NCBI GenBank assembly: GCA_019113645.1
Contig: DXGZ01000041.1
Location: 1-34,322 of the forward strand
Direction of reading: 5' to 3'
DNA length: 34,322 nucleotides
Origin: Candidatus Mediterraneibacter vanvlietii
Lineage (GTDB): Bacteria; Bacillota; Clostridia; Lachnospirales; Lachnospiraceae
Part shown: positions 10,183-34,322 of the stretch, piece by piece
Position numbering within the stretch: the first letter of the stretch is position 1
Layout of the letters: the number at the start of each line of letters is the position of its first letter
Notes under the pieces: generated by a model
The model's database searches: none
Told to the model about the DNA's origin: nothing
The model's input: only the letters and a program-made list of their open reading frames with translations
Made by a program: the position numbers and the translations under genes

Positions 10183-10199
10183 AATCAGTTGCACCTTTT

Positions 10200-13059: not shown

Positions 13060-13096
13060 AACAAACACTGCGCGTTACAATTCACACCTGACTTGT

Positions 13097-13851: not shown

Positions 13852-14019
13852 AAGTGACAGTTCAGCCCGCGCCATTCGCAAAGCCGCACTCCGTGCTTAC
13901 CGCGGCTATGCCGCATCTTTGCTCATATGCCGGCGCTCAGCTCATCGGGGAGGACAGGGACAGACTCTTATGCAGGCACAACTCTGTCCCTGCCCTCCCC
14001 GATGGCTGAACTGTCACTT
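13852..14019. repeat. 168-bp multibranched palindromic element
   Basis: The outer arms AAGTGACAGTTCAGCC (13852-13867) and GGCTGAACTGTCACTT (14004-14019) are perfectly complementary. Inside are two large branches. The first (about 13869-13936) pairs GCGCC, CAT and GCAAAG with CTTTGC, ATG and GGCGC, and contains two small stems (GCAC/GTGC and GCGG/CCGC). The second pairs 13943-13964 with 13983-14004 over 22 bp with one mismatch and an 18-base loop. The element sits between the divergent SSB-like gene and typA, immediately upstream of the typA promoter. It has no credible coding frame. It may be a MITE/REP-like mobile repeat or a structured RNA. Confidence 0.8.
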
Positions 14020-14045
14020 GTAAATTATAGATTTTGTGATAGAAT
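14018..14045 (+). promoter_or_regulatory. Candidate sigma-A-type promoter for typA
   Basis: TTGTAA (14018-14023) and TAGAAT (14040-14045) are 16 bases apart. The -35 box abuts the right end of the palindromic element, about 55 bases before the typA start. Confidence 0.45.
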
Positions 14046-14100
14046 AAGAAAGTTACAGTTACAATTTATGACATTATATAAGGAAAGAGTGTTGACAAAT

Positions 14101-15927: not shown

Positions 15928-15941
15928 ATAAGGAGATACCT

Positions 15942-16556: not shown

Positions 16557-16644
16557 CGCTGTTCCATGTTATAATATTTACATAATACATACACATATTT
16601 AACACATGTTTATGTAAAATATGAACAAAAAGGAGTTGAACAGT

Positions 16645-17202
16645 ATGAATTTTATCATCAGTGGAAAAAACATCGAAGTAACTCAGGGACTCAAAGACGC
16701 GATCGAACAGAAATTAGGAAAGCTTGAGAGGTACTTCACTCCTGAAACAGAAATCATCGTAACCTTGAGCGTAGAGAAAGGACGCCAGAAGATCGAGGTA
16801 ACAATCCCGGTCAAAGGAAACATCATCCGCTCAGAGCAGACGAGCAATGACATGTATGTATCCATCGATCTTGTAGAAGAGATCATCGAGCGCCAGCTCC
16901 GCAAATACAAAAACAAGCTGGTGGCGAAGAATCAGGGACATCCCACTTCGGCCGCACCGACCGGAAGTATCCGGAAAGAATTCATAGATTCCGAGGAAGA
17001 ATCCCCCGAGGATGACGAAATCCGTATCGTGCGCACGAAAAAATTTGGTATCAAACCAATGTATCCGGAAGACGCCTGCATCCAGATGGAGCTTCTGGGA
17101 CACAGCTTTTTCGTATTCTCCAATGCGGAGACGGAAGAGGTCAATGTAGTATATAAGAGAAAAGACGGTTCTTTCGGACTGATCGAGCCTGAATTTTCAT
17201 AA
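16645..17202 (+). CDS. hpf: Long-form ribosome hibernation promoting factor
   Basis: HPF binds the 30S decoding region and, in its long form, dimerises ribosomes into inactive 100S particles in stationary phase. The 185-residue protein has the N-terminal HPF/RaiA domain (MNFIISGKNIEVTQGLKDAI, about 1-100), a charged linker and the C-terminal dimerisation domain beginning KKFGIKPMYPEDACIQMELL. ATG 16645 is nine bases after AAGGAG; the upstream ATG at 16621 has no ribosome site. It follows the PsiE-like gene by 88 AT-rich bases and ends in a strong terminator. The context suits a translation/stress cluster with typA. Confidence 0.95.
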   Translation: MNFIISGKNIEVTQGLKDAIEQKLGKLERYFTPETEIIVTLSVEKGRQKIEVTIPVKGNIIRSEQTSNDMYVSIDLVEEIIERQLRKYKNKLVAKNQGHPTSAAPTGSIRKEFIDSEEESPEDDEIRIVRTKKFGIKPMYPEDACIQMELLGHSFFVFSNAETEEVNVVYKRKDGSFGLIEPEFS

Positions 17203-17232
17203 GTCGTAATAGTTCAGTTGTCTTACGTAAGG

Positions 17233-17269
17233 CGCCGGGTTTATGCCTGCATAAAACCCGGCGTTTTTT
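17233..17269 (+). terminator. Rho-independent terminator after hpf
   Basis: CGCCGGGTTTATGC (from 17233) pairs with GCATAAAACCCGGCG (to 17263) with one bulged A and is followed directly by TTTTTT (17264-17269). Confidence 0.92.
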
Positions 17270-17288
17270 CAATCATATAAATGTTCTC

Positions 17289-17942
17289 TTATTCTTCCCA
17301 TACTTCCACGCCGTTCCCGGTCCGGGCAAACCAGCATGTGCCTGCTTTATCTATAGCCGCCTGTCCATTGGTTCCTTCAAGCACCTCTTTCGTAAAAGCA
17401 CTCTCTTCCTCTTCCGGAACGAGCAGGAAGATGTCCACCCTGTCTGTATAAACTGTATCCAGGATATACAGATCTCTCCGGGCAATAAGATACTGTATTT
17501 TCCCAAGTCCGGTATAATCCGTATGAATAACCAGTTTAAATCCGAAGATCCGGGTAATGATCACAGTATCCGAAAGCGCTGCGGCAGATGCAGCCGTATA
17601 TGCACGCACCAGTCCGCCTGTCCCGAGGAGCGTGCCGCCGAAATATCTCGTCACGACCACAAACACATCTGTCACATTCCGTCCGCGGATCACTTCAAGG
17701 ATCGGTTTTCCGGCGGTTCCGGCAGGCTCCCCGTCATCGCTCATCCTCTCTGACGCAGGATTTCTTCCGATCACATAAGCCCAGCAGTGATGTCTTGCAT
17801 CCCAGTATCTTTTTTTAACCTCTTCCAGATGAGCAAATGCTTCTTCTTCTGAGACAACAGGATAGACTTCTGCGATAAAGCGGGACTTTTTCTCTGTATA
17901 CTCTCCCGCGCCTCCCCTGTATACGGTATCATATCTGTCCAT
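17289..17942 (-). CDS. YigZ/IMPACT family protein
   Basis: The 217-residue protein matches the YigZ/UPF0029 family, bacterial relatives of the N-terminal part of the eukaryotic translation regulator IMPACT. Conserved segments include EKKSRFIAEVYPV, the block DARHHCWAYVIG, SDDGEPAGTAGKPIL and VVTRYFGGTLLGTGGLVRAY, followed by the smaller C-terminal ferredoxin-like domain. ATG 17942 has AAGGAG six bases upstream; the frame to 17978 has no ribosome site. The molecular function is not established. It is transcribed divergently from the penicillin-binding protein gene and convergently with hpf. Confidence 0.93.
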   Translation of the reverse strand: MDRYDTVYRGGAGEYTEKKSRFIAEVYPVVSEEEAFAHLEEVKKRYWDARHHCWAYVIGRNPASERMSDDGEPAGTAGKPILEVIRGRNVTDVFVVVTRYFGGTLLGTGGLVRAYTAASAAALSDTVIITRIFGFKLVIHTDYTGLGKIQYLIARRDLYILDTVYTDRVDIFLLVPEEEESAFTKEVLEGTNGQAAIDKAGTCWFARTGNGVEVWEE

Positions 17943-18054
17943 CAGGCTCTCCTTTCCGTCAGAAAATCCACTCGGCAAACTGACTCTAATATATTAGCAA
18001 AAAATGTAGAAAATATGAAGATTTTATTTTTAACTTTATTTATATGCGCATATT

Positions 18055-18063
18055 TGATATAAT
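18055..18063 (+). promoter_or_regulatory. Extended -10 promoter of the PBP gene
   Basis: TGATATAAT fits the extended -10 form (TG-n-TATAAT) 30 bases before the GTG start. The region 17 bases upstream is AT-rich without a good -35 box, which an extended -10 tolerates. Confidence 0.55.
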
Positions 18064-18092
18064 CATGGGAGTTGAAAAGGAGGATGTTATTC

Positions 18093-20842: not shown

Positions 20843-22204
20843 CTAATCCATTTTATTATAAATATCTTTATTAAGCACGCCCTCTTTGAAGTTCACAATA
20901 ACATTCGTAGCTGCATCGCCAATAACATTAAGCGTGATAACAGCCATCCCTGGCAGATAATTCATTGCAAGGACTAATGAGTAGCCAATCATGCACAGCT
21001 CTGACGTCATTCCAAGACCGGACATAATAACATATACCATTGTTGTTCCTGCCACAGGGATTGCAGGGCATCCCATCGCTGTACAGATTGATAGAAATGC
21101 AGCCACAACCAGAGTTGAAGGTGTGATATCGATGCCTGCCGCTGTGGCAATGAATGTGATTGCTATCATATGCATTGCTGTCGTACCGTTCATATTGATC
21201 GTCATCCCCGTCGGAAGAACGAAACTGCTGATCTCTTCCGTGCATCCGAGCTCATTGATACATGTCTTTGTATTCAGTGGAAGCGTTGCAGCAGATGAGT
21301 TTGTCGCTGCCGCAAACAGACCGATCTTAAACGATTTTTTAAGGAACGGGATCGGGTTCAGCCGCGTGGTAAGGAAGATACCGATCGGATAGATGGTGGA
21401 TACAAGTACCAGGCTTACAATGATAGTTGTTATCATCCAGACAAGCGTCGGTCTGATATATTCCACACCATAAACAGCAAGTGTCCTGCAGATCATGCAG
21501 AAAATTGCCACGGGTCCCACTTTGTCGATAAGAAAATTCAGAAACATCTGAATAATATCATTGAGATTTTCAAGTACTTTCTTCAATGGGTCTGTCTTCT
21601 CTCCCAGAAAAGTCATGCACAGGCCCAGGATGATCGCTACTACCACAACTGCAAGGATCTCATTGTTGGATGCAAACGCAGAAAAGATATTGGATGGAAC
21701 TGCTGTGATGATAGCTGTCAGCGGATTGTATCCTTCCATCGTTACTGCCTCTGTCGCCATTTCATTTGGCAGATTAACATTAAACCATCCCATAGATTTT
21801 ACAAAGTAGGCCGCTGCTCCGGCCAGTGCTGCTGCTACAACATAAAAACAGATATATGCAATAAAAGTTTTCCCTGCGATCTTTCCCAGTCTCTCAGGAT
21901 TAGCCAGGCTGCACATTGCAAGACTCAGCGATGTCAATACCAGCGGTACGATCGCCATCTGGAGCCCTCTCATGAACAGTTGTCCGACAATATAGAGGAT
22001 CCCCAGTCCTTCAAATCCGTCTGTCGTCGTGATATCCTGGAAAAATATCGCGTCTATTATATTCCAGACTCCTTCATTCCCATTTCCATTTAGGAATTCT
22101 CTGAGGATAAGACACAGAAAGCCGACTACAAAACCGGCGATCACTGCGATAATCATTCTTTTGACGATTGATCCTCTCTTTTTTTCTTTCTTTTCGTTTG
22201 CCAT
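20843..22204 (-). CDS. Dicarboxylate/amino acid:cation symporter (SLC1/DAACS family)
   Basis: This 453-residue membrane transporter has the DAACS fold, with several hydrophobic helices, the serine-rich re-entrant loop motif AAATNSSAATLPLN and the ion/substrate motif NMNGTTAM (NMDGT in many relatives) in the C-terminal half. Members take up glutamate, aspartate, C4-dicarboxylates, serine or threonine with Na+ or H+; the substrate here is not clear. The ATG is four bases after AAGGTGG. The gene is monocistronic with a strong promoter at 22288-22316. Its promoter carries the same upstream element as the carbohydrate operon, which suggests joint control. Confidence 0.93.
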   Translation of the reverse strand: MANEKKEKKRGSIVKRMIIAVIAGFVVGFLCLILREFLNGNGNEGVWNIIDAIFFQDITTTDGFEGLGILYIVGQLFMRGLQMAIVPLVLTSLSLAMCSLANPERLGKIAGKTFIAYICFYVVAAALAGAAAYFVKSMGWFNVNLPNEMATEAVTMEGYNPLTAIITAVPSNIFSAFASNNEILAVVVVAIILGLCMTFLGEKTDPLKKVLENLNDIIQMFLNFLIDKVGPVAIFCMICRTLAVYGVEYIRPTLVWMITTIIVSLVLVSTIYPIGIFLTTRLNPIPFLKKSFKIGLFAAATNSSAATLPLNTKTCINELGCTEEISSFVLPTGMTINMNGTTAMHMIAITFIATAAGIDITPSTLVVAAFLSICTAMGCPAIPVAGTTMVYVIMSGLGMTSELCMIGYSLVLAMNYLPGMAVITLNVIGDAATNVIVNFKEGVLNKDIYNKMD

Positions 22205-22287
22205 AATTCCACCTTCCCCGTTTCTTTGTTTTTAATCTGTATACAAACGACCGCTCATTGTGTATACTGCACGAATGCTTTACATGT

Positions 22288-22316
22288 ATTTTACGATTGA
22301 GGAAGTTTAATGTCAA
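22288..22316 (-). promoter_or_regulatory. Strong sigma-A-type promoter of the symporter
   Basis: On the minus strand a perfect TTGACA (22316-22311) and TAAAAT (22293-22288) are 17 bases apart. The leader of about 80 bases contains two TGTATAC half-palindromes (22238-22245 and 22261-22267). Confidence 0.8.
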
Positions 22317-22323
22317 CATTTTT

Positions 22324-22338
22324 TCTTTATTTCAAAGA
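22324..22338. promoter_or_regulatory. Candidate regulator site upstream of the symporter -35 box
   Basis: TCTTTATTTCAAAGA is an imperfect palindrome (TCTTT...AAAGA) seven bases upstream of the -35 box. The identical 15-mer lies at 30899-30913, six bases upstream of the -35 box of the carbohydrate operon. The flanks also match (GAAAAA on one side, AAAA on the other). The likely binder is the DeoR regulator encoded at 22592-23449, by inference only. Confidence 0.5.
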
Positions 22339-22405
22339 TTTTTCTATGTTTTAACCAATTTTTTTGTTTTATTTTTGTTATATATTTTTTGATTTATGCA
22401 TTTTA

Positions 22406-22416
22406 TCTTTGTTTCA
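22406..22416. promoter_or_regulatory. Candidate second operator upstream of the symporter
   Basis: TCTTTGTTTCA here differs by one base from TCTGTGTTTCA found twice at the carbohydrate operon promoter (30877-30887 and 31002-31012). The region is AT-rich, so chance resemblance is possible. Confidence 0.3.
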
Positions 22417-22481
22417 AAAATATTTTCAAAACATATCAAAAGAATTCTCTTTATTTCTCTGCGAATGTCTCTTCATATACG

Positions 22482-22539
22482 AAAACAGGGGGCCGGATTT
22501 GGATAAGCATATATCCTTACTTCCGGCGCCCCCTGTTTT
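22482..22539 (-). terminator. Terminator of the carbohydrate operon (after deoR)
   Basis: AAAACAGGGGGC (from 22482) pairs with GCCCCCTGTTTT (to 22539), extended by CCGGA pairing past a two-base bulge and an inner GGATA/ATATCC stem. It lies 53 bases after the regulator gene and ends in TTTT on the minus strand. Confidence 0.8.
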
Positions 22540-22591
22540 GGCGTACATTCTGTCAATATTCAGTTTCCATCATTTTTCCAGATAGAGTGGC

Positions 22592-23449
22592 TTAATAAAT
22601 CAGCTCTATCCCATATTCGTTGCAATAATCGACCCATTCGTCATCTGGTTTTCTATCCGTAACAAGATAGTTCACACGTTTCAGATCGATCAGATTAACA
22701 AACGCTGACTGCCCGAACTTGGAATAATCCGCCAGAAGAGCCACTTCCTCCGCCTGGGCAAGCATAGCCTTTTTGATCTCCGCCTCGCTCTCATTGGAAT
22801 CCAGGACGCCTTTTTCAATACTCAGGCCCTTGCAGCTGATCAGCGCAAGATCCACATTATACTTTTCAACATTGGTCTTTGCCAGCTGGCCCTGAAGAGA
22901 CAGAGCCTTTTTGTTAAATTCCCCGCCCGTGGAAATAATATTAAAGGGCGATTGCTGAAATTCCCGAAATACTTCTGTGGAATTTGTCACGATCGTAATC
23001 TCCTGAGACTCCGGGATAATCTTCAGTGCCTCTACCACTGTCGTGCTGGAATCTGCAATAATCGTGCTCTTTCCCTCTAGAAGTTTCGCTGTCTTTCTGG
23101 CGATCTCCTGTTTCTCTCTCAGATGTCTGCTCAACCTCCTGTAAAAATGGATGCCTTCTTTCTGAGCGCCCTCATTCCAGATAGCGCCACCGTGTATCCT
23201 TGTAAGGATTCCTTCAGTCTCGAGCTTATCCAGATCTCTTCGAATCGTTTCTTCCGTCACCCGGCATATCCTGCTCAGATCACTGACAGTTACCTTTTTT
23301 TCGGTCTGAACAGTCTGGCGGATGACCATCAATCTCTCTTTGCCGGCCATACTTTCTTCCCTTTCCCCGCTCACGGTATTTATCCTTTCTTTATCTAATA
23401 ATATACCTTCCGGGTTGGTTTTTGCAAGACTTTTGTCCTGTGAAAGCAT
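22592..23449 (-). CDS. DeoR/GlpR-family transcriptional regulator
   Basis: The protein has a DeoR-type winged helix-turn-helix (KVTVSDLSRICRVTEETIRRDLDKLETEGILTRIHGGA, read in parts, about residues 50-90) and a C-terminal sugar-phosphate-sensing domain with DSSTTV, TNSTEV and the DSNESEAEIKKAML segment. Such proteins usually repress a neighbouring carbohydrate operon and are released by a phosphorylated sugar intermediate. It is the last gene of the minus-strand operon, 83 bases after the aldo/keto reductase. ATG 23449 has AAAGGAGG five bases upstream, giving 285 residues. A later Met (23350) would give the usual length but has a weaker site, so an N-terminal extension of 33 residues is likely. 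Confidence 0.92.
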   Translation of the reverse strand: MLSQDKSLAKTNPEGILLDKERINTVSGEREESMAGKERLMVIRQTVQTEKKVTVSDLSRICRVTEETIRRDLDKLETEGILTRIHGGAIWNEGAQKEGIHFYRRLSRHLREKQEIARKTAKLLEGKSTIIADSSTTVVEALKIIPESQEITIVTNSTEVFREFQQSPFNIISTGGEFNKKALSLQGQLAKTNVEKYNVDLALISCKGLSIEKGVLDSNESEAEIKKAMLAQAEEVALLADYSKFGQSAFVNLIDLKRVNYLVTDRKPDDEWVDYCNEYGIELIY

Positions 23450-23532
23450 GTTATCCTCCTTTAAAACCTACATGTTTGAGGTTGAAGTCAAATGAAACAG
23501 TCTTTAAAAAGCAGACAGCCCAATTTTACCGA

Positions 23533-24525
23533 TTATTTGTCAATCTCTTCTGCCAGTTCTCTCATGTAAGCCACATCCTCCGGATCAAGATCCAGTTCTG
23601 CAGATTTTACATTTTCCTCAATCTGCTCTGCTGTAGTTGATCCGCTGAGAAGGTTCATGAAATCTCCCTGTGCCAGAATCCATCCAAGTGCAAGATTGGC
23701 GATCGTGCAGTTGTATTTCTCACAAAGCGGTTTCCACTTGTCCATCATATCCATAGCAGCCTGCATGTTATCCGGCTGGAACCATTTTTTCGGAATCTGC
23801 GCGCCTACCGGTTTGTAGTCTCTTGGCATTGTTCCTGATAAAAGTCCCATCTCAAGCGGCGAGTAGGCCTGGATTGTCACGCCGTTCTCGCGGCAGCAAG
23901 GAATGATCTCTTCTTCGATTCCACGGTCAAGGATAGAATATTTCGCCTGCACGATATCAAGATCTCCCCATTTCAGGTATTCTTCGATGTGATGAATATC
24001 CACATTTGCAGCTCCGATCGCTCTGATCTTCCCCTGAGCCTTCAGATCATTAAGTACATCCATTGTCTTTTCGATCGGCACGTAATACGGGGAGCCTTCG
24101 ATTGACTGCCAGTGCGTCATGTATACATCTACATAATCCGTACCCATGCGCTCCAGAGATGCCTTGATCTCTTTCTTTACGGACTCGCTGTTTAAGTTCT
24201 TGTAAAGCTGGATACCATTTACGACATTAAACATATCGCCTTTCATTTCCTGATCCCACGTAACTCCGCATTTTGTGATGATCACAAGATCCTCACGGTT
24301 CATACCCTCAAGCGCTTTTCCAAGGATCTTTTCACTGTTTCCGAAGTTATATCCCGGTGCTGTATCGATCAGGTTAACGCCTGCTTTCGGTGCTTCTCTG
24401 ATCGTGTCAACTACAACCTGGAGATCATGGTCTCCGCCCCATGCAGACCCGCCGCCGATGGACCATGTGCCAAGACCGATTCTTGAGATATCAATACCTG
24501 TTTTTCCTAATTTCATTGTTTTCAT
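23533..24525 (-). CDS. Aldo/keto reductase
   Basis: The 330-residue NADPH-dependent (beta/alpha)8 oxidoreductase has the AKR start MKLGKTGIDISRIGLGTW and the catalytic tetrad residues in DTAPGYNFGNSE (Asp, Tyr), VIITKCG (Lys) and VYMTHWQ (His). The cofactor-binding end is near LLSGSTTAEQIEENV. ATG 24525 is about ten bases after AAAGGA; the frame to 24597 overlaps the kinase gene and lacks a site. It lies 46 bases after the PfkB kinase in the carbohydrate operon and probably reduces or oxidises a sugar or a keto-sugar intermediate. The exact substrate is unknown. Confidence 0.93.
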   Translation of the reverse strand: MKTMKLGKTGIDISRIGLGTWSIGGGSAWGGDHDLQVVVDTIREAPKAGVNLIDTAPGYNFGNSEKILGKALEGMNREDLVIITKCGVTWDQEMKGDMFNVVNGIQLYKNLNSESVKKEIKASLERMGTDYVDVYMTHWQSIEGSPYYVPIEKTMDVLNDLKAQGKIRAIGAANVDIHHIEEYLKWGDLDIVQAKYSILDRGIEEEIIPCCRENGVTIQAYSPLEMGLLSGTMPRDYKPVGAQIPKKWFQPDNMQAAMDMMDKWKPLCEKYNCTIANLALGWILAQGDFMNLLSGSTTAEQIEENVKSAELDLDPEDVAYMRELAEEIDK

Positions 24526-24571
24526 AACTGATTTATTCCTTTCTCCTGTCCGGTACCTGTCCGTACAGATT

Positions 24572-25549
24572 TTACTGCTGCTGTCCGTAGTCCACAAGGT
24601 ACTTCGCGAGCATCTTATCTACATCCGACTTCTCTTTGACTCCTCCGGTAGCGCCGACATACTGGACCGACACAGCCGCCGTACAGTTTGCATAGACGGC
24701 ACAGTCCCGGATGCTCTTGCCCTCAAGAAGTCCGGTTATAAATCCTGATGCAAAATTATCTCCGGCGCCGATCGTGTCGATGGCTGTCACTCCTTTGCAT
24801 GCCGGAACAATCTGTGCTCCTTCCGCATTGCGGATATAGCAGCCTCTCTTACCAATCTTCATGACCACATTCTTCACTCCGCACGCATACAGCTTATCGG
24901 CAACCTTTGCCTCGTCTGTCTCGCCTGTCATTTCGCTGGCTTCTTCAAAGTTCGGGAAGAAATAATCCACATAACCCAGCGCCTCCGTGATATCCTCCAG
25001 TTTTTCATTTAATCTGGGGGATACCATATCCGCACAGATGATCATGCCTTCTTCTTTGGCTTTCTTAAACACAGATACCATTGCCTTGTTATCAAACAGC
25101 GGATTATTAAAAATACTTGCAAACGAGAGGATCTTCGCATCCTTCAGAGCGGACAGATCCAAATCATCATATTTGAATTTCCACAGGCTGCCCTGACGGT
25201 TCGTAATAAACGTACGTTCCCCGTCCGCAGCTACCAGTCCCACGTTGATCGAGGTGTCAATTCCGGGATCCTGTTTGATATATGTAGTATCAATCCCAGT
25301 ACGTTCACAATGACTCAGCACAAAAGCGCCCGCCACATCGACGCCGATACAGCTCATCAGCGACACCTTATGTCCCAGCCTTGTAATGATCGTAGCTTCA
25401 TTTACGGCATCCCCGCCTATGGTCATGGAAATCCCATCCACCGGATAGGAGACGGTATCAAACACCTCTTTGCTCACCGGGCGCAGCGGCAGATCCACGA
25501 TCGCCGCCCCGATGATAATTACATCTGTACCTTTACCCACTTTATTCAT
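24572..25549 (-). CDS. PfkB-family sugar kinase
   Basis: This 325-residue ribokinase-fold kinase has the N-terminal glycine motif (MTIGGDAVNEATI) and the C-terminal PfkB signature DTIGAGDNFASGF, with the catalytic Asp and anion hole. The chosen ATG at 25549 follows GGAAGG by four bases and overlaps the aldolase stop codon by eight bases, which implies translational coupling. In context it should phosphorylate the ketose (or ketose phosphate) that the aldolase cleaves. It could be a ribokinase-, fructokinase- or 1-phosphofructokinase-like enzyme; the sequence does not decide. Confidence 0.92.
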   Translation of the reverse strand: MNKVGKGTDVIIIGAAIVDLPLRPVSKEVFDTVSYPVDGISMTIGGDAVNEATIITRLGHKVSLMSCIGVDVAGAFVLSHCERTGIDTTYIKQDPGIDTSINVGLVAADGERTFITNRQGSLWKFKYDDLDLSALKDAKILSFASIFNNPLFDNKAMVSVFKKAKEEGMIICADMVSPRLNEKLEDITEALGYVDYFFPNFEEASEMTGETDEAKVADKLYACGVKNVVMKIGKRGCYIRNAEGAQIVPACKGVTAIDTIGAGDNFASGFITGLLEGKSIRDCAVYANCTAAVSVQYVGATGGVKEKSDVDKMLAKYLVDYGQQQ

Positions 25550-26381
25550 CAGCCCTTCCATCATCACCAAACAATTTGATCTTATACATTGCGCGCTCTT
25601 TCACCGCCTGTCTTACAGCTCGTTCTACAGCCAGGAACGGCTCGTCCTTATGCTCGTTTATCGCCTCCATCGCAGCCTGACACAGTTCTGTATGGATATT
25701 GATCTTTGCGATTCCAAGAGAGATTGCTTTTTTGATATCCTCATCGCCGATGCCGGAAGCGCCGTGCAGTACGATAGGAACATCTACTGTATTTGCAACT
25801 TCCTCAAGTATATCAAACGCCAATTTCGGTTCGGAAGAGTATACTCCGTGTACATTTCCGATAGCAACTGCCAGAGAATCACATCCTGTTCTGTCCACAA
25901 AATCCTTCGCCTGTTTCGGATCTGTATAGTGATACTCCGCCAGAGCTTCTTCATATATTGTCTCATTTCCTACATGCCCGAGCTCGGCCTCCACAGGAAT
26001 GTTATATGCATGGAAATAATCAACACATCTCTTTATCTCCGCAACATTTTCCTCATACGGAAGAGCCGAAGCGTCACGCATTACAGAGTTCATGCAGTGG
26101 TTTACCGCATTCTGCAGGATCGTCATATTGCGTCCGTGATCCCAGTGCAGGATAACCGGCACAGTTGCCTTTTTCGCCATAGATTCCATCATATAACAGT
26201 AGTCTTCAAAGGAAGTGTTCCCCGTAAATCCAGTTCCAAAAGAGATAATGATCGGGGCGCGCAGTTCCTCTGCGGCATCGATAACTCCCATCAGCATCTC
26301 TGCATTCCACACGTTAAAATGAGGAATTGCATAATGTCCTTCGCTTGCTTTCTTTTCCCAATATCTGATATCTGATATCAT
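25542..26381 (-). CDS. Class II ketose-bisphosphate aldolase
   Basis: The 279-residue zinc-dependent aldolase cleaves ketose 1,6-bisphosphates (fructose, tagatose or similar) into dihydroxyacetone phosphate and an aldehyde. Zinc and catalytic segments are visible: PVILHWDHG (Asp, His), VEAELGHVG, LAVAIGNVHGVY, VLHGASGIG and KINIHTEL. The usual SVMIDGS is SVMRDAS and LHGGSG is LHGASG here, which may reflect an unusual substrate. The ATG is eight bases after AGGAG. It lies between the sorbitol-dehydrogenase-like gene and the kinase, with which it overlaps. Confidence 0.92.
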   Translation of the reverse strand: MISDIRYWEKKASEGHYAIPHFNVWNAEMLMGVIDAAEELRAPIIISFGTGFTGNTSFEDYCYMMESMAKKATVPVILHWDHGRNMTILQNAVNHCMNSVMRDASALPYEENVAEIKRCVDYFHAYNIPVEAELGHVGNETIYEEALAEYHYTDPKQAKDFVDRTGCDSLAVAIGNVHGVYSSEPKLAFDILEEVANTVDVPIVLHGASGIGDEDIKKAISLGIAKINIHTELCQAAMEAINEHKDEPFLAVERAVRQAVKERAMYKIKLFGDDGRADE

Positions 26382-26414
26382 AACTTATTCTCCTTTCTCA
26401 CCACGTTTGAACGT

Positions 26415-27470
26415 CTACTCCGCAACCTTCACTACACCTTTGATCATCTCGGTCTTCTTGACCGGATCAATTGCGTCTTCGAACGCCTGCTGCACATCTT
26501 TGTAATCATAGATATTTGTTACCATATCTTTGACATTGAACTTGCCTGTAGCGATCGCTTCGATCGTCTGCGGGAAGTTATTACAGTAACGGAACGATGT
26601 CTGGATCGTAACCTCACGGTTGATCTTCAGGAAATCGATCGGTACCGGTTTGGACTGTGTGCCAACCATCATGATCTTTCCGCCGCGCGCAACAATCTGA
26701 ACAGCCTGCTGAGCAAGGAATACGGATCCGCCACATTCAAATACGAGCTCTACTCCGTGATCGCCGTACAGTTCTTCGGAGCGCAGGAATGCGACTGTAT
26801 CCTGCTCTTTTCCGTTGATCACTCTCTTAGCCCCAAGTTTCTTTGCCAGTTCCAGACGTTTCTCGATCACATCTACGACTGTGATGTCTGTAGCGCCAAG
26901 GCTTAAACATGCCTGAAGGACCATCAGACCGATCGTTCCTGCTCCCAGGATGACAATACTCTTTCCAAGTTTTGCCTCTCCGAGGATTGCCGCATGCATG
27001 CCAACTGCCGCAGGCTCTACCAGCGCGCCCTCCAGAGTTGTCATTCCTTCCGGAATATGATAGGTCCATTCCTCCGGATGTGCCATGTACTGTGTCAGCG
27101 CTCCTTTATAGTTCGGCTGTGTAGCCATAAAGTCTACGCTCGGGCAGATATTGTAACGTCCGGTACGGCAGTAATCACATGTGTTGTCCGGTACGCCCGG
27201 CTCGATGAGCACTTTGTCTCCAACTTTGAACTTCGTTACTTTTGATCCTACGGCTGCAACTTCGCCTGCAACCTCATGGCCGAGACCGATCTTCTGGTTC
27301 GGATCTTTCGGAGGGATGAATGGTCCGAACTCAAAACCGTGGATATCAGACCCACACATTCCCACATACTCTACTTTAAGGAGGATTTCATTCTCCTTCG
27401 GCTCCGGAATCGGACACTCCTGAATCTCAAAATGTTTCGGAGTGACTAAGATTGCTTCTGAATTTTTCAT
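26415..27470 (-). CDS. Zinc-dependent polyol dehydrogenase (sorbitol dehydrogenase-like)
   Basis: The 351-residue medium-chain dehydrogenase closely follows the sorbitol/xylitol dehydrogenase subgroup: catalytic-zinc region CGSDIHGFEFG and GHEVAGEV, GALVEPAAVGMHA, and the NAD Rossmann loop VILGAGTIGLM followed by VVDV with an acidic NAD-type residue. The structural-zinc lobe reads PDNTCDYCRTGRYNIC, three cysteines with Asp or another residue in the first position. The likely reaction is oxidation of a polyol to a ketose. ATG 27470 is eight bases after GGAAG; the longer frame to 27521 lacks a site. It is the fourth gene of the operon. Confidence 0.92.
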   Translation of the reverse strand: MKNSEAILVTPKHFEIQECPIPEPKENEILLKVEYVGMCGSDIHGFEFGPFIPPKDPNQKIGLGHEVAGEVAAVGSKVTKFKVGDKVLIEPGVPDNTCDYCRTGRYNICPSVDFMATQPNYKGALTQYMAHPEEWTYHIPEGMTTLEGALVEPAAVGMHAAILGEAKLGKSIVILGAGTIGLMVLQACLSLGATDITVVDVIEKRLELAKKLGAKRVINGKEQDTVAFLRSEELYGDHGVELVFECGGSVFLAQQAVQIVARGGKIMMVGTQSKPVPIDFLKINREVTIQTSFRYCNNFPQTIEAIATGKFNVKDMVTNIYDYKDVQQAFEDAIDPVKKTEMIKGVVKVAE

Positions 27471-27530
27471 CTTCGTTACTTCCTTCCTTTTATTTAATAT
27501 TCTGCGCGAAATATCCAGCACAGACTATAT

Positions 27531-28910
27531 TTAATCGATATTACCAATATCTTCTACAGATTCTCCCCTTGTCTCAACACCGAATACAGCAACGCATACG
27601 GCAATGACAATTGCCACTATAGAAATCAGAACAAATACACCGCCACTTCCCATCGCGCTTGCTGCAATGTATGTAACCAGGAACGGGAAGAAGATATTGC
27701 TGACACGTCCGATCGCGTTACAGAAGCCAGAACCTGATAGTTTTGCCGACGTAGGCCACATCTCCGGTACATATACGGCTGATGCATAGCACACATACAT
27801 GTAAATAACTGTATTCAGTAAGAACGTTGATACGATCAGAGGCGTCATCGATGTCTGCTGGCTTGTAACAACACCAAGTACTGCCATCAGCACAAGCAGG
27901 ACAACACCTGTAACCCTTCGCGGAATCTTATCCATATAAAGAGATGCGATAAAGATACCAAACGGTGCCCCGAAAAGGCCGAACATTGTCATGAACTGAG
28001 ACTGGGATGTATCATAACCAAGGGATACAAGCAGTGAAGGCATCCACGTCATCAAGGTATACTGAATTGTATTCATTCCGATCAGTACAAGGGATCCGAC
28101 AATCGTTCTTCTGAGCAGTTTTCCTTTAAACAATGCAGAATACGGAAGCTGTTTTACCGGCTTTGGTTCTTCTGTTACAGGAGGAAGCGGTTTGCCTGTT
28201 GATGCTTCGATCTCTTTTTCAATCTTTGTAAGGATAGCATCTGCCTCGTCCACTCTGCCCTGAGACTCCAGCCATCTCGGTGACTCCGGAAATTTCTTTG
28301 CAATAAGAACAGCTGCAATAATTGAAAGAATCGACGGAATCATATACTGGATTCTCCAGTTTGCATTCAGGCTTACACCTGTCAGACCAATCAGGAAAGC
28401 TATACCGTTGCTTACCGGGTGAGACCAGTTTCCGATAAAGGAGTTACGGCTGGACCATGTACCACGATTTCTTCCCGGAACATACTCCGTAAATCCCGCA
28501 AACAGAACAACCAGAAGAGCACCGAGACCAAATCCCTGAATAAGCCTGAATACATACAGTACATATACATTCGGCGAAACCGCGCCACCGATCATAGCTA
28601 TGATGTGTATTACTTCATATAACAAAATACTTTTTTTACGTCCGATCTTATCGCCGATAGGACCTCCGACAAGTGCTCCGAAGAGCTGTCCTGCCGTATA
28701 TGTCGTTCCCCACATTGCAAGGAGTGTTGTTCCCGACTCCAGCCAGTGAAGTTCATTGAGCAGCACATTCTGTACAGAACCGCCGATTGCATTTGACCAG
28801 CAGACAAGTAGGGCAAATGCTGTAATAAGCCACATTTTTATGTGCCAGCCCGAATTCGGCAGGCGATCCAGCCTTGCGCCGATATTCGCGCTCTTTTTAT
28901 TTGATGCCAT
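27531..28910 (-). CDS. MFS sugar porter family transporter
   Basis: The 459-residue protein has twelve hydrophobic segments and sugar-porter signatures: GDKIGRKKS between helices 2 and 3, FPESPRWLESQGR after helix 6, and VETRGES at the C-terminus. This family brings in sugars, inositols and other polyols unmodified by proton or sodium symport. That fits an operon whose first steps are dehydrogenases rather than a phosphotransferase system. ATG 28910 is preceded by AGAGGAA; the frame to 28976 runs through a hairpin and is not used. The substrate is not predictable from sequence alone. Confidence 0.92.
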   Translation of the reverse strand: MASNKKSANIGARLDRLPNSGWHIKMWLITAFALLVCWSNAIGGSVQNVLLNELHWLESGTTLLAMWGTTYTAGQLFGALVGGPIGDKIGRKKSILLYEVIHIIAMIGGAVSPNVYVLYVFRLIQGFGLGALLVVLFAGFTEYVPGRNRGTWSSRNSFIGNWSHPVSNGIAFLIGLTGVSLNANWRIQYMIPSILSIIAAVLIAKKFPESPRWLESQGRVDEADAILTKIEKEIEASTGKPLPPVTEEPKPVKQLPYSALFKGKLLRRTIVGSLVLIGMNTIQYTLMTWMPSLLVSLGYDTSQSQFMTMFGLFGAPFGIFIASLYMDKIPRRVTGVVLLVLMAVLGVVTSQQTSMTPLIVSTFLLNTVIYMYVCYASAVYVPEMWPTSAKLSGSGFCNAIGRVSNIFFPFLVTYIAASAMGSGGVFVLISIVAIVIAVCVAVFGVETRGESVEDIGNID

Positions 28911-28943
28911 AATTTTTTCCTCTCTTCCTTTCTTTGTTATGTC

Positions 28944-28983
28944 CGGCGGCATGGCCGGCAGAGGTTTAATCGCCATGCCGCCG
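28944..28983. other. Intra-operon hairpin
   Basis: CGGCGGCATGGC (28944-28955) and GCCATGCCGCCG (28972-28983) form a perfect 12-bp stem with a 16-base loop between the epimerase stop and the MFS start. On the minus strand no T run follows, so it is more likely an mRNA-stability or processing stem than a full terminator. Confidence 0.7.
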
Positions 28984-28989
28984 TTCGGA

Positions 28990-29682
28990 TCAACGGTTAA
29001 GATCCTTTAGTTCATCGTCTACTTCACTCTGCATGATAGCCCACGCAGTCTTGATATCCGGGTCTTTATTCCAGAGAGCCGGCGGACCGAGAACTACCAT
29101 ATCTGCACCCGCCTCATACAGAGGGGCATAAACTCCTGCATTCATAGAGCCGTCAGCCTCGATCAGGAAGTCCAGCCCCATCTCTTCTCTCCATTTTACA
29201 AGTGTGCGGATTTTATCGTACATCTGTGTAATAACCTTCTGTCCCGCATAGCCTGCATCCACGATCATAATCGTAACTTTTGAAAGCAGCGGCAGGTAAT
29301 AGCGGATTGCTTCAAGCGGCGCGGCGGGATTCATTGCGATTCCCGCCTTGCAGCCAAGAGAGAGGATTTTATTGATTGTGACGAAAGCATCACTCTCAAT
29401 ACAGTCGGTATGCGGAGTTATATAATCTGCTCCAGCCTCCGCGCACGCCTCGATAAAGTCCTGCGGGTGTTTTACCATCAGGTGGGCATCCATTGGTTTT
29501 TTGACCACTTTCTTCAATACTGCCATAAAGTCAGGCCCTACGCCGAATGTCTTGACATAATTGCCATCCTTAATATCAATGTGGAGAAAATCTGCATGTT
29601 CATCGATATATCTCACCTGATTTTCAAAATCATATAAGTCACAGCATCCCATTGAGGGAGCCAGCAAAAGTTTCTTTTCCAT
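28990..29682 (-). CDS. AlsE-like ketose (phosphate) 3-epimerase, RPE family
   Basis: The 230-residue TIM-barrel protein belongs to the ribulose-phosphate 3-epimerase family and resembles E. coli D-allulose-6-phosphate 3-epimerase (AlsE) more than housekeeping RPE. Shared blocks are IDEHADFLHIDIKDG, KPMDAHLMVKHPQDFI, VKWREEMGLDFLIEADGS and IKTAWAIM. Metal ligands are present (His and Asp in HIDIKDG, His in DAHLMV, Asp in EADGS). The C-terminal phosphate-binding loop, GTSGLF in AlsE, is GPPALW here, so the substrate may differ or lack a phosphate. The ATG is eight bases after AGGAG and five bases after the preceding gene. It should invert C3 of a ketose or its phosphate. Confidence 0.88.
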   Translation of the reverse strand: MEKKLLLAPSMGCCDLYDFENQVRYIDEHADFLHIDIKDGNYVKTFGVGPDFMAVLKKVVKKPMDAHLMVKHPQDFIEACAEAGADYITPHTDCIESDAFVTINKILSLGCKAGIAMNPAAPLEAIRYYLPLLSKVTIMIVDAGYAGQKVITQMYDKIRTLVKWREEMGLDFLIEADGSMNAGVYAPLYEAGADMVVLGPPALWNKDPDIKTAWAIMQSEVDDELKDLNR

Positions 29683-29687
29683 CCGGA

Positions 29688-30770
29688 TTACTCCTCATCA
29701 TCAAAGTCATAGTGGAAGATTACTTTGATTGCTTCTTTCCTTGCCATTGCATCAAATCCTTCCTCATACTGTGATAAACCGAGTCTGTGTGTGATCATCG
29801 GCTGAACCTTGATCTGGCCGGATGCAAGCAGACGGATCGCATTTCTCCATGACGTGGAGTCATATGCCATGTGGCCGATAATGCTCTTGTTCCAGGATGT
29901 AATATCATTAATAGAGAAATCAAGCGGCTTGAATCCCATTCCGACACGGACAACCTCGCCGTTCGGCCGGAGCATCTCGATTGCCTGTTTCAGGGCGATG
30001 TTAGCACCTGAACACTCGATAACAAGTCCAAGGTTATCTCTTCCACAGATTTCAGTACATCTCTTAACCACATCTTCTTTAGATCCGTTTACCACATGCG
30101 TAGCACCTACTTCAAGGGCAACCGGGAAGCGGGTCGGAACATCCTCGTCAAGTCCTACCATTACAATGTTGACAGCACCCATGATACGTGCAATCTGTAC
30201 GGAGAAAAGTCCGAGCGGGCCTGTTCCGAATACCACAACATCCTGTCCCGGCATAAGATGGCTCTGCTGGGCTACAGCCTTGTATGCATTACAGATTGGA
30301 TCAAGCACTGCTGCTTCTTCGTATTTCACATTCTCAGGGATTTCCCAAATCGCATGTTTGTGAATTGCGAGGATTTCACCCGGTACCTTGCAATACTTGG
30401 AGAAGCCGCCGCCCCATGTATTGTTATCCAAACCTAAGTTTACTTTTTCTTCACAGCAGAGAAAATCACCCTGTTCACAAGCCGGGCAGACACCGCATAC
30501 GTGAGCGCTGTTATCGGATACAACCCTCTGTCCGACTTTCCAGTCTTTTACATTTTCTCCCACTTCTACGATATCTCCTGCAAACTCATGTCCACGGATG
30601 GAGTTGAATTCATCTGATCCGTTATCCACTCTCCAGTGCTTCATATCAGCTCCGCAGATAGCGGCTGCCTTGATCTCAATGATAATATCATCCGGTCCAC
30701 AAGTCGGCTTCGGGACATCAATCATTGTATATCCGCCAAATTCTTTACCAAATCTTGCTATTGCTTTCAT
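29688..30770 (-). CDS. Zinc-dependent medium-chain alcohol/polyol dehydrogenase
   Basis: This 360-residue dehydrogenase is the first gene of the carbohydrate operon. It has the catalytic-zinc residues in AAICGADMKHW and RGHEFAGDI, a complete structural-zinc lobe (CGVCPACEQGDFLCC), the cofactor-binding loop VVFGTGPLGLF and a C-terminal dimer segment. Relatives oxidise polyols, threonine or sugar phosphates; it is distinct from the second dehydrogenase at 26415-27470. The ATG is seven bases after AGGAG and about 95 bases from the promoter at 30864-30892. Two zinc dehydrogenases in one operon suggest two oxidation steps or two substrates. Confidence 0.92.
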   Translation of the reverse strand: MKAIARFGKEFGGYTMIDVPKPTCGPDDIIIEIKAAAICGADMKHWRVDNGSDEFNSIRGHEFAGDIVEVGENVKDWKVGQRVVSDNSAHVCGVCPACEQGDFLCCEEKVNLGLDNNTWGGGFSKYCKVPGEILAIHKHAIWEIPENVKYEEAAVLDPICNAYKAVAQQSHLMPGQDVVVFGTGPLGLFSVQIARIMGAVNIVMVGLDEDVPTRFPVALEVGATHVVNGSKEDVVKRCTEICGRDNLGLVIECSGANIALKQAIEMLRPNGEVVRVGMGFKPLDFSINDITSWNKSIIGHMAYDSTSWRNAIRLLASGQIKVQPMITHRLGLSQYEEGFDAMARKEAIKVIFHYDFDDEE

Positions 30771-30863
30771 TTTTCAATCTCCTCTTCCTTCTTAACATTC
30801 GGGGGATCCCCCCTTTGCTTGATACTCGTTTCCGGCCAGAAACTTTATTTTTTATCTGTCTGT

Positions 30864-30892
30864 ATTTTATTACTTTTCTGTGTTTCAGTCAA
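30864..30892 (-). promoter_or_regulatory. Sigma-A-type promoter of the carbohydrate operon
   Basis: On the minus strand TTGACT (30892-30887) and TAAAAT (30869-30864) are separated by 17 bases. The spacer contains the sequence TGAAACACAGAAAA, which is repeated upstream at 30999-31012. Confidence 0.8.
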
Positions 30893-31012
30893 TTATTTTC
30901 TTTGAAATAAAGATTTTTCAGCATTTTTAACACTAATCCTTTTCCCAAATCTACTTTTTGCGTTTTTTTCAATACTATTTTTTGGTTATTTTGCACATTT
31001 TTCTGTGTTTCA
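30874..31012. repeat. Pair of 14-bp direct repeats, candidate operators
   Basis: TTTTCTGTGTTTCA occurs at 30874-30887 (inside the promoter spacer) and at 30999-31012, 125 bases apart. One copy in the promoter and one upstream is the arrangement expected for repression by looping, as known for DeoR-family repressors. Binding here is inferred. Confidence 0.5.
30899..30913. promoter_or_regulatory. Candidate regulator site upstream of the carbohydrate operon -35 box
   Basis: The minus strand reads TCTTTATTTCAAAGA six bases upstream of TTGACT, the same 15-mer as upstream of the symporter promoter (22324-22338). It is an imperfect palindrome flanked by GAAAAA and AAAA in both places. Confidence 0.5.
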
Positions 31013-31026
31013 CATATTTCAGGCAT

Positions 31027-31070
31027 GAAAACAAAGAAAAGCGCCGGAACCTGAAACAGTTCCGCCGCTT
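31027..31070 (-). terminator. Terminator after the ROK glucokinase fragment
   Basis: AAGCG-C-CGGAAC (31039-31050) pairs with GTTCCG-C-CGCTT (31059-31070) across one C-C mismatch. On the minus strand it is followed by TTTTCTTTGTTTT. It separates the fragment from the carbohydrate operon promoter. Confidence 0.8.
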
Positions 31071-31112
31071 ACTTTCTATCTGCAGCTTCTCAATATTTAT
31101 TTATATTTTCTT

Positions 31113-31799
31113 CTATGCATTGTCGAGAACCAGCTTCGCCGCGCCGCAGATGCCTGCATCATTACCGAGCTTCGCGAGCACGAATCTTACATTCTTATTC
31201 GCAAAGAATGCTCTCTCCATGTATGGCTCTCTTATGTACGGGATAAGTACTTCTCCGGCTTTGGATACGCCGCCGCCAATGACAAATACTGCCGGATCCG
31301 TCACTGCTGCAAGATTAGCCAGTCCGTATCCCAAATATCTTCCAAATGTAGTGGCGATTTCCTTTGCCACATCATCTCCTGCTTTCACTGCATGGAAGTC
31401 CGCGCCCTTGTTGGAACTGAACGCGCCAGGGACGTTCTCCCAGACGATATACCTCGGATATTTTCCATCGGTTGCACACCTCATTTCTTTTACAATCCGT
31501 ATTGCCTCATAAAAGAGGTTACTCCGTGAGCCGCCAAGCCCGGCTCTTTTCCCGGCAATGCTCATATCCTGGCAGGGCGAGCCGAAGGTGATGATGTCCA
31601 CCGGCTCTACCTCTGCGCCGTCCATCCGGGAGACATCGCCGTAATGCTTCATAAAAGGCAGCCGCTTTGTGGTCACCCGGATGGGGAACGGCTCAATCTC
31701 CGATGCCCAAACGGGGGTAATGCCGGAGAGCAAGCCGCCCAGGGGGAAGCCGCCGGAGCCGTCAAAGAGGCTGCCGAGGGTCAGTTTGTCATGGAGCAT
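31113..31799 (-). pseudogene. Chimera: N-terminal C5-DNA methyltransferase joined in frame to C-terminal ROK glucokinase
   Basis: The frame begins as a cytosine-5 DNA methyltransferase: SAM-binding motif I (LGSLFDGSGGFPLGGLL), catalytic PCQ motif IV (FGSPCQDMSIAGKRAGL) and motif VI (WENVPGAF). After about residue 134 (bases 31385-31406, GADFHAVKAG) it becomes the last 94 residues of a ROK glucokinase (IATTFGRYLGYGLANLAAV, VFVIGGGVSKAGEVL, LGNDAGICGAAKLVL). Missing are the target-recognition domain and motifs VIII-X of the methyltransferase, and the ATP-binding N-terminus and zinc motif of the kinase; neither half should be active. ATG 31799 overlaps the upstream HNH gene by 11 bases, while the 3' end keeps the kinase stop and terminator. 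It is a mobile-element junction, deletion scar or assembly error. Confidence 0.85.
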
Positions 31800-32406
31800 T
31801 GACAACACCCCCATCCCAGAAATCAAAAAATGCGCTGTTCTGCGAGAGTTCCGCATAACGCGCACATTTTCCAGCGACTTTTCTTTCAATCCAATCCGGT
31901 GCTTTTCCAGTATCGTTATATCTCCCATACTGTCCAAACATACAAAGCATTCCAATATTCCGCGCTTTTACTGCATCTTCAAAGGTATCAAAATAGCCAA
32001 GGTGTATCTCTTGCTGGCAGATTTTTATTCTTGCCCGGAATTTGCGCCTTGGCGGATAATAACTCACGCCACTGACACCGGAAGTATTATTTTTCTGCAG
32101 CGGCTGGTTCATCTGGTTCTGCTGATGTGTACAATAACGGATATTGCACCTGCGATTGTCAAATGTGTCCAGATTTATATGGTCTATTTCATAGCCCGGC
32201 CTGTGTTCAAACAGATAATCATGGAGGGTTCGTCCCTTACAGTCAATCACATAATATTGGCTGCCATTTCCTTTGCTGCCCAGATAAAATTTAACTGTAC
32301 GAATCTTTTCGACCATATCGGCATCTATCACAAAAATCTGACCGCTTGCCAGTTCCCCATAGGCTACAAGGCCGTCTTCAGAAAACCGATATTTTACATT
32401 ACTCAT
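31789..32406 (-). CDS. HNH endonuclease with AP2 DNA-binding domain
   Basis: The 205-residue protein has an HNH nuclease segment (YEIDHINLDTFDNRRCNIRY, about residues 70-90) followed by an AP2-like domain (NTSGVSGVSYYPPRRKFRAR...HLGYFDTFEDAVKAR, about 107-150). This is the layout of free-standing homing endonucleases common in phages. ATG 32406 is nine bases after GGAGG and overlaps the upstream methyltransferase gene by eight bases. Its own end overlaps the cytosine methyltransferase start by 11 bases. It probably cleaves a specific site in related genomes lacking the gene. The target is unknown. Confidence 0.9.
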   Translation of the reverse strand: MSNVKYRFSEDGLVAYGELASGQIFVIDADMVEKIRTVKFYLGSKGNGSQYYVIDCKGRTLHDYLFEHRPGYEIDHINLDTFDNRRCNIRYCTHQQNQMNQPLQKNNTSGVSGVSYYPPRRKFRARIKICQQEIHLGYFDTFEDAVKARNIGMLCMFGQYGRYNDTGKAPDWIERKVAGKCARYAELSQNSAFFDFWDGGVVNAP

Positions 32407-33673
32407 CTGCAATTACCTCCGCCATATCAAGTGCCTGTTCGTAGGTATGTTCCTTTCCATCCCGGATCAACAGCACACCATCCGCACTGTTGCCATGCTG
32501 GTTCATGTAACGCATAACTGCCACATCTACAAACTTTGGTTCCAATTCCACCCCATAACAGATCCGCCCGATCTGGTCACAGGCAATCAGCGTGGATGCT
32601 GAACCCAGAAACCCATCCAGTACGATTCCATTTACCTGTGTGCTTTGCTGTATCAGATACGCAATGAGAGGAACAGGTTTACTGGAAGGATGACCATGTC
32701 CGTCCTCTTTTGAATTCTTGATTCCATCAAATTCAAAGACGGCTTTCTGTTTCTGGTCTCCATACCACTTGTGCTTTCCATCCTTTCTCCAGCCAAAGAT
32801 GATCGGTTCCATGTTGAACTTCCAGTCTGTCCGCATCAGCGGAGCCCTGGGCTTTTTCCAGATGAGTCCGGCGCCGACCTTGAACCCGGCATCCTCAAAG
32901 GCGTCATAAAACACACGCGCTTTCATAGTGGCGTAAAATTCATAGATAGAAGCGTCAATGGCCATGGCATCTTTGAAGTTCGTAAATGCTTTCATGAGGA
33001 ACTCGTAGGCCTGGGCATCCTCCAGATCGTCGTTTGCGATCCGCCCGGACTGGCTCTCCAGTTTAACAAAATACGGGGCGTCCGTGCAGACCAGGTTGAC
33101 CTTCGTGTCTCTAAGAAGCAAACGGAACGTCTCCGGGTCTGTGGAATCCCCGCAGATGACGGTATGTTTTCCAAGCCGCCAGATGTCACCTGCTTTGGAA
33201 AAGCAGGGCTTCTCCAGTTCCGCTTCCACATCGAAGTCATCTTCCTTCGCCTCATCATCTGTACCAAACAGGTCTGCCAGTTCCTTTTCATCAAAACCGG
33301 TCAGCAGGGGATCAAAGTCCATACCCTGCAAGGACTCAATCTCCACCCGCAGAAGTTCCTCATCCCATCCGGCATCCATCGCCATGCGGTTGTCCGCAAT
33401 GATATAGGCTTTCTTCTGCGCTTCCGTCATTTCATCCACAAAAACGCACGGAACTTCTTTGTATCCTTCTGCCTTTGCGCCGATAAGACGTCCGTGTCCT
33501 GCCAGAACGTTGTAATCTCTATCAACAATAATCGGATTTACAAATCCAAACTCCCGTAAAGAAGCCCGAAGCTTGTTTATCTGCTCCGGGCTGTGTGTCC
33601 TTGCATTATTGATATATGGGACAAGCCGATTAATATCAACCAACTGGAATTCTGTAATTGTTTTATGTTCCAT
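32399..33673 (-). CDS. ParB-like nuclease domain fused to DNA N6/N4 methyltransferase
   Basis: The 424-residue protein begins with a ParB/sulfiredoxin-like domain (VDINRLVPYINNARTHSPEQ, NPIIVDRDYNVLAGHGRLIGA, about 10-100). It continues as a permuted amino-methyltransferase: catalytic motif IV first (VNLVCTDAPYFV, about residue 205), then HPSSKPVPL and SAM motif I (VLDGFLGSASTLIACDQ) near the C-terminus. Motif IV is DAPY instead of the usual DPPY, and motif I is DGFLGSAST, both slight departures. Such fusions are typical of Clostridia phages, where they methylate phage DNA. ATG 33673 is six bases after AAGGAGG and overlaps the upstream HNH gene by 11 bases. Confidence 0.9.
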   Translation of the reverse strand: MEHKTITEFQLVDINRLVPYINNARTHSPEQINKLRASLREFGFVNPIIVDRDYNVLAGHGRLIGAKAEGYKEVPCVFVDEMTEAQKKAYIIADNRMAMDAGWDEELLRVEIESLQGMDFDPLLTGFDEKELADLFGTDDEAKEDDFDVEAELEKPCFSKAGDIWRLGKHTVICGDSTDPETFRLLLRDTKVNLVCTDAPYFVKLESQSGRIANDDLEDAQAYEFLMKAFTNFKDAMAIDASIYEFYATMKARVFYDAFEDAGFKVGAGLIWKKPRAPLMRTDWKFNMEPIIFGWRKDGKHKWYGDQKQKAVFEFDGIKNSKEDGHGHPSSKPVPLIAYLIQQSTQVNGIVLDGFLGSASTLIACDQIGRICYGVELEPKFVDVAVMRYMNQHGNSADGVLLIRDGKEHTYEQALDMAEVIADE

Positions 33674-34277
33674 GCTGCACCTCCTTCGGCAGAATTGTAC
33701 GGATTCTTTGGACGATTTTTGAAATAGTCGAATGTGAAACATTATTTATCCGCCCTAATTCGCACATAGACATTCCGAAATGCTCATACAGAATATATAA
33801 TGTGAGCCAGTCTGCTAACGGTATGGCTAATTCATGTTTGGCGGCATGCGGATCAAACAATCCCGTACTAATCGCATGAGCATTATTTTCAGCAACTGTA
33901 CACCATTCGAGATTTGAGAGGGCATTATTCTGTTTGTTGCCATCTTTATGGTTTACTACAAGATTTTGCCTTTCTCCAATCCACGCATTTAGCATCATTC
34001 TATGTGCCTTAAGATGTTTTTTGATTCCATCTATCGTGATGCGATACGTAACATAGCCATACTTATCGATTGATCCGTTTAGTTTCATTATCCTGTATTT
34101 TTCAACTAAATTTCCTGCCTTGGAATACTGTCTGTGACAAATTGAATAGAAGTTCCCGTAGCGATCACAAACATAACAATCGTTCTCTGGGCAAAAATGA
34201 TAATCATCCACACCGAGAGTCTTCATCTGTTCATCAACCCAAATTAATGCTCCTTCCGAATGAGATGTAGTTTTCAT
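33663..34277 (-). CDS. HNH homing-type endonuclease with C-terminal helix-turn-helix
   Basis: The 204-residue protein contains an N-terminal segment of NUMOD/zinc-like character (FCPENDCYVCDRYGNFYSIC), a HNH nuclease core (LKAHRMMLNAWIG, NHKDGNKQNNALSNLEWCT, about residues 95-140) and a C-terminal helix-turn-helix (GMSMCELGRINNVSHSTISK, about 170-190) that probably recognises DNA. ATG 34277 forms an ATGA overlap with the stop of the gene upstream and follows GGGGG by eight bases; the ATG at 34292 is less well placed. It is a free-standing homing-type endonuclease in a phage gene array. Confidence 0.88.
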   Translation of the reverse strand: MKTTSHSEGALIWVDEQMKTLGVDDYHFCPENDCYVCDRYGNFYSICHRQYSKAGNLVEKYRIMKLNGSIDKYGYVTYRITIDGIKKHLKAHRMMLNAWIGERQNLVVNHKDGNKQNNALSNLEWCTVAENNAHAISTGLFDPHAAKHELAIPLADWLTLYILYEHFGMSMCELGRINNVSHSTISKIVQRIRTILPKEVQHGT

Positions 34278-34322
34278 CGCACCAGCCCCCATTCCGCAAA
34301 TTTCTCAAAACCGCCAAGGCTC
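34274..34322 (-). CDS. 3' end of an unidentified phage-region gene (runs off right edge)
   Basis: The last 15 codons of a minus-strand frame, encoding SLGGFEKFAEWGLVR, end in a TGA that overlaps the start of the HNH gene as ATGA. Fifteen residues are too few to assign a family. The overlap is the main evidence that the frame is real. Confidence 0.5.
   Translation of the reverse strand, partial: SLGGFEKFAEWGLVR

Follow-up and report, generated by a model that had tools for sequence, protein, structure and literature searches.

The join of a phage cytosine methyltransferase gene to a glucokinase gene considered here most likely belongs to a chimeric, mis-binned contig and marks neither a phage insertion site nor a new kind of gene. 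The window, namely the whole of contig C26 (34,322 bp) in the 144-contig assembly G000, most likely contains a one-off union of two unrelated DNA pieces brought together in a metagenome contig. With moderate confidence, the join is considered to be a chimera of contig ends or of reads, such that no source DNA molecule would carry it, with contig-end joining or a chimeric read presumably having created it.

Examination of the list of open reading frames and their translations revealed that the ORF at 31113-31955 on the minus strand remains open across positions 31385-31406. The N-terminal part of its predicted product matches PF00145 (residues 60-189; E 1.7e-25; profile positions 3-125 of 324) and the C-terminal part matches PF00480 (residues 187-278; E 1.4e-14; profile positions 201-293 of 294), confirming the in-frame join of a methyltransferase to a glucokinase described in an earlier note. 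The first half corresponds to the 5' part of a phage C5-cytosine methyltransferase gene (31394-31955, minus strand; PF00145, phrog_116) found as a 699-amino-acid frame in the phage record holding L033. The second half is the 3' part of a ROK glucokinase gene, glk (31113-31393, minus strand; PF00480), comprising the last 94 of some 313 codons, with the native gene being found in L241, L240, and G074:C48. As also described in that note, FDGSGG, PCQ, and ENV, which we take to be C5-methyltransferase motifs I, IV, and VI, are intact in the translation of the methyltransferase half, and the host terminator was retained, with a terminator-like hairpin lying 3' of glk at 31064-31045 (minus strand; two such sites per 701 scanned bases, as compared to 0.7 ± 0.8 in shuffles).

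Because the glk frame contains no stop before that of glk itself, a frame that stays open past the join needs only a one-in-three frame match. Moreover, missing from the fused protein are the methyltransferase stretch QRRKR (QRR), presumably a later motif of that enzyme, and the glucokinase stretches DIGGTT and CGCGNRGC, presumably its ATP and zinc motifs. That a functional methyltransferase-glucokinase fusion protein is encoded is hardly credible since, despite the open frame, the methyltransferase profile is matched only to position 125 of 324 and the ROK profile only from position 201 of 294, all three stretches lie on the lost sides, and a 26-mer spanning the junction had no match in viral_contigs or genome_contigs. 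Judging from its sequence, the protein encoded by the join is not expected to be active.

The junction could be assigned to a single base, 31393 (minus strand), this being the last base identical to the phage, the first identical to glk, and the sole base common to both parents at the break. Around the break, the parental sequences read GACTTCCAGTCCGTC (phage) and GACGTCTTTGATGCAGTG (glk). With the break given as a slash, the phage reads ...GCGCGGACTTCCA/GTCCGTC, the window reads ...GCGCGGACTTCCA/TGCAGTG, the native glk of a 99.9% identical relative reads ...GACGTCTTTGA/TGCAGTG, and glk relatives read ...TTTGA/TGC or TTTGA/CGC. In BLAST searches, similarity to phage stopped at 31393 in all eight phage loci (L030-L036 and L080), and similarity to glucokinase began between 31391 and 31397 in each of 12 glk loci, two of which are the same C92 gene. 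The earlier suggestion that the parents share a short stretch near GACTTCCATGCAGTG did not hold, as only one base is common to both at the breakpoint; an attachment core at the junction was rejected on the same grounds. No direct repeats were found within 31250-31550, a region containing one unrelated palindrome, and an Rfam scan of the window returned nothing at gathering thresholds. The junction 26-mer found no match in the viral_contigs or genome_contigs collections, from which near-identical records are possibly omitted, and the native glk 27-mer found none in viral_contigs.

The phage segment (31393-34322, minus strand; 2,930 bp) corresponds to positions 13315-16244 of the 44,294-bp record holding L033. 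Over these 2,930 bases, aligned without gaps, identity is 99.90% with L031 and 99.86% with L033, both IMG/VR phages, and 98.06% with L032 (57 differing sites). Apart from the methyltransferase fragment, the segment encodes an HNH endonuclease (31789-32412; PF13392, phrog_99), a ParB-like/N6-N4 DNA methyltransferase (32399-33742; PF01555, PF02195, phrog_498), and a second HNH endonuclease (33663-34292; PF13392, phrog_59, alignment), all on the minus strand. The gene encoding the last of these is present in L031, L032, and L033 and missing at this position in L030, L034, L035, L036, L038, L040, and L080, a distribution that makes it look like a mobile insertion. In the L033 record, DNA polymerase and helicase genes precede the methyltransferase gene, and terminase and portal genes follow it.

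According to one earlier reading, the join arose by site-specific recombination of an element that carries its crossover site within its own methyltransferase gene. This is very unlikely. The phage does encode integrase/invertase-family proteins, and a native 5' contig from another assembly, G074:C48, ends where a reciprocal junction would fork the assembly. However, the common core amounts to one base, and the methyltransferase gene is unbroken in relatives, with the 699-amino-acid frame in the L033 record being matched at residues 1-699 in the L032 record; the L031 methyltransferase likewise continues beyond the break, up to the end of the L031 contig. In addition, the integrase/invertase-family genes occupy 40.7-44.3 kb of the L033 record, far from the break at 16.2 kb, that is, 24 kb away in the linear record or 16 kb away with the record ends joined, although attP is not always found beside its integrase. 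Finally, a search for the reciprocal junction, as proposed in the earlier note (the missing glucokinase N-terminus joined to the methyltransferase C-terminus), revealed neither the second methyltransferase half nor a matching glk 5' half in the G000 draft. The integrase/invertase-family genes themselves form three neighboring reading frames (L139, 686-4294) with which the L033 phage record closes, and membership in the invertase family suggests integrases of the serine type.

Turning to the host side, positions 1-31393 appear, from sequence identity, to be chromosomal DNA of Candidatus Mediterraneibacter faecipullorum that was mis-binned in G000. Positions 26116-31393, the sole part so compared, are 99.9% identical over 5,279 bases to L240 (DWWO01000005.1, Candidatus Mediterraneibacter faecipullorum ChiW19-954), and the contig shows 80-87% identity to G036 along its whole length. 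A diverged counterpart of the locus is present elsewhere in the bin, on contig C92, corresponding to C26 positions 1615-20422 and 31110-31393 at 70-86% identity and including apgM, prfB, secA, hisA, dapB, typA, and the homoserine dehydrogenase gene, a neighborhood normally present in single copy. C92 is 70-84% identical to G036, and its best long match among 40 other genomes searched is to G005 (81% over 12.5 kb). G005 also best matches C123 (long matches of 83-88%; eight other genomes searched). Species affinity was thus compared for C92 and C123, two of the 143 other G000 contigs. Because C26 is nearest to Ca. M. faecipullorum and C92 and C123 are nearest to G005, C26 looks like a contaminant in the G000 bin from another species of Mediterraneibacter, with C92 appearing to come from a species other than that of C26. 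The intact glucokinase that, according to the earlier note, would point to an assembly chimera if found elsewhere does exist in the literal sense, on C92, but on a contig apparently from another species than that of C26. G000 is listed at 98.03% completeness and 2.04% contamination.

Several other features of these genomes were noted. Between the PBP1A gene and glk, positions 20843-30770 contain a polyol/sugar catabolism cluster and a dicarboxylate-type symporter, with the cluster comprising a DeoR regulator, an aldo-keto reductase, a sugar kinase, a class II aldolase, two Zn-dehydrogenases, an MFS transporter, and a ribulose-phosphate epimerase. Long matches to this cluster occur in six of 40 other genomes of the genus (G036, G004, G013, G050, G009, and G042), with no match in the compared part of C92. 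A repeat of some 139 bases found at the start of C123 (L161, 1-139) has copies on at least 25 other G000 contigs (83-99% identity), often at contig ends; it has no Rfam match, and none of the copies listed is on C26. Lastly, G012, listed at 6% contamination, holds two glk copies on separate contigs (G012:C49 and G012:C102) and is perhaps a mixed bin like G000.

Comparison with the related glk locus, as had been proposed earlier, showed that the native gene crosses the junction point in the 99.9% identical relative. The genome to which DWWO01000005.1 belongs, G074 (the ChiW19 MAG), has the 5' part of glk on contig C48, the last base of which is glk base 659, corresponding to window junction base 31393. 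The 3' glk contig, L240, begins 44 bp before the junction base and reads as native glk across it. The break in the other faecipullorum assembly accordingly falls on this very base, and the sequence flanking it is native on either side. The two contigs have 45 bases in common, with one mismatch, and overlaps among the 24 G074 tips compared were of 43, 40, and 28 bases. The idea that the ChiW19 sample must contain junction reads, given where C48 ends, was given no weight, since at such a fork the native path should share an exact overlap with the 3' contig, rather than 45 bases with one mismatch. A 288-base typed query for the phage methyltransferase gene found no match in G074 or G075. That the phage inserts at glk base 659 by a low-homology mechanism with the crossover in its methyltransferase gene, such that the faecipullorum contig break would be the trace of a reciprocal junction in a second sample, is also highly improbable. 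At the adjacent glk base 660, T, C, and G were found in 45, 23, and 1, respectively, of the 69 ungapped loci among 80 fetched, mostly from different species; variation at this base among strains, if present, could also break an assembly there.

These observations can be accommodated by the favored reading of a chimera, in which a faecipullorum contig stopping at an assembly break inside glk would have been fused end to end, over a single shared base, with a piece of phage DNA, the resulting chimera then being binned with a Mediterraneibacter of another species. Two break points of assemblies may accordingly have been brought together at the join. In support of a chimera, the parents have one base in common and no core; the bin mixes species, with C26 and C92 both carrying the secA/prfB/typA locus; G074:C48 ends at the junction base, with the neighboring glk base 660 being variable; and phage bases 16245 and 13314, immediately past the junction and the outer end of the contig, respectively, vary among relatives (L032 vs. 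L033 at 16245, and L033 vs. L031 and L032 at 13314). Likewise, a query covering 10.6 of the 44.3 kb of the phage matched only C26 within G000, the second methyltransferase half and a faecipullorum-type glk 5' half were not found in this assembly, and the junction 26-mer was not matched in viral_contigs or genome_contigs.

At the level of assembly, three pairs of G000 contig tips, all from one repeat family, have exactly 131 bp in common (67 of 288 tips compared), with two further pairs having 21 and 19 bases in common. This pattern suggests that G000 was built by a de Bruijn assembler using a long k, with overlaps of 131. Since such a program would not ordinarily join sequences that share one base, the two parents must have been bridged either by a read, whether genuine or chimeric, or in scaffolding. 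One published description (PMC8035907) reports MEGAHIT assembly with k up to 127, with samples assembled individually except for one BioProject. This k differs from the 131-base tip overlaps in G000.

Other findings speak against a chimera. The contig is unbroken at the join, where a break would be expected had well-covered native paths been in competition, and glk base 660 was found to vary from species to species. The evidence from the phage is also weak. L031 and L033 differ, per bin, by 3-14% upstream of position 13315, by 0-0.6% within 13315-16245, and by 0-2.6% beyond. Inside the segment, they differ at five sites (13317 and four more), with the next difference at 16260, 16 bases past the join. 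Polymorphic sites account for 72 of 700 positions in that stretch, or about one in 10; L032 departs from the window at 57 sites within the segment, the outer HNH gene is missing in L030, and forks at both segment ends are obtained from no one pair of the known phages. The support that the phage sequences lend to the reading of the segment as a piece of an assembly graph is, therefore, only suggestive. The outer contig end had also been explained by a k-mer overlap of 55 bases lying beyond the HNH insertion, an idea dropped following alignment and tip comparison.

The main rival is a real recombination scar in one faecipullorum strain, generated by illegitimate recombination or by a deletion reaching from a nearby prophage into glk, that fused the methyltransferase gene with glk, with loss of the first two thirds of the latter. 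Because no one pair of the known phages forks at both ends, confidence in a chimera is moderate and the scar is a tentative possibility that deserves serious weight. It is the main rival since joining two sequences over one base is not something that a de Bruijn assembler should do without help. Indeed, such an assembly should not invent a join, and the contig is unbroken there; the one-base overlap suits end joining; the L033-type phage has integrases, so that a prophage state is possible; and related phage sequence is found in other genomes of the genus, the closest being in G041 (95% over 770 bp). In the last case, G041:C14 was considered as a second phage-host junction and rejected, as it is a mosaic phage relative up to the contig end and uninformative on glk. 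On the other hand, the breakpoint is the exact contig end in the other faecipullorum assembly, where native glk is present, and falls at a position where one phage relative differs. Moreover, G036, G004, G002, and C92 are collinear over some 5 kb on the 5' side of glk, so that no prophage lies that close to glk in these, and the adjoining 10.6 of the 44.3 kb of the phage, when used as query, matched only C26 within G000. Of the other explanations raised earlier, a prophage deletion scar is less probable than a chimera, and mis-assembly at microhomology fits best as regards the chimera but not as regards the microhomology, as the overlap is one base.

The case serves as a warning, with a striking in-frame fusion having been encountered on an apparently mis-binned contig despite the listed completeness and contamination values. 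A real join that recurred elsewhere would suggest that the phage inserts by an unusual route. Serine-integrase attachment junctions join phage to host, as seen here inside a gene and with a phage that has integrase/invertase-family proteins; unlike such junctions, the present one offers no common core, has its integrase genes far away, and yielded no reciprocal junction. Prophage deletion and illegitimate-recombination scars are abrupt phage-host joins with minimal homology, as is the join in the window; in contrast to such scars, however, the breakpoint here is where a contig of another faecipullorum assembly ends, and the relatives compared have no prophage in the roughly 5 kb lying 5' of glk. 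The contig also resembles the chimeric and contaminated metagenome-assembled genomes dealt with by GUNC (PMC8201837) in being made of two sources and binned with another species. It differs from these in that its foreign chromosome comes from within the genus and its other source is phage DNA, a 2.9-kb piece at one end of the contig.
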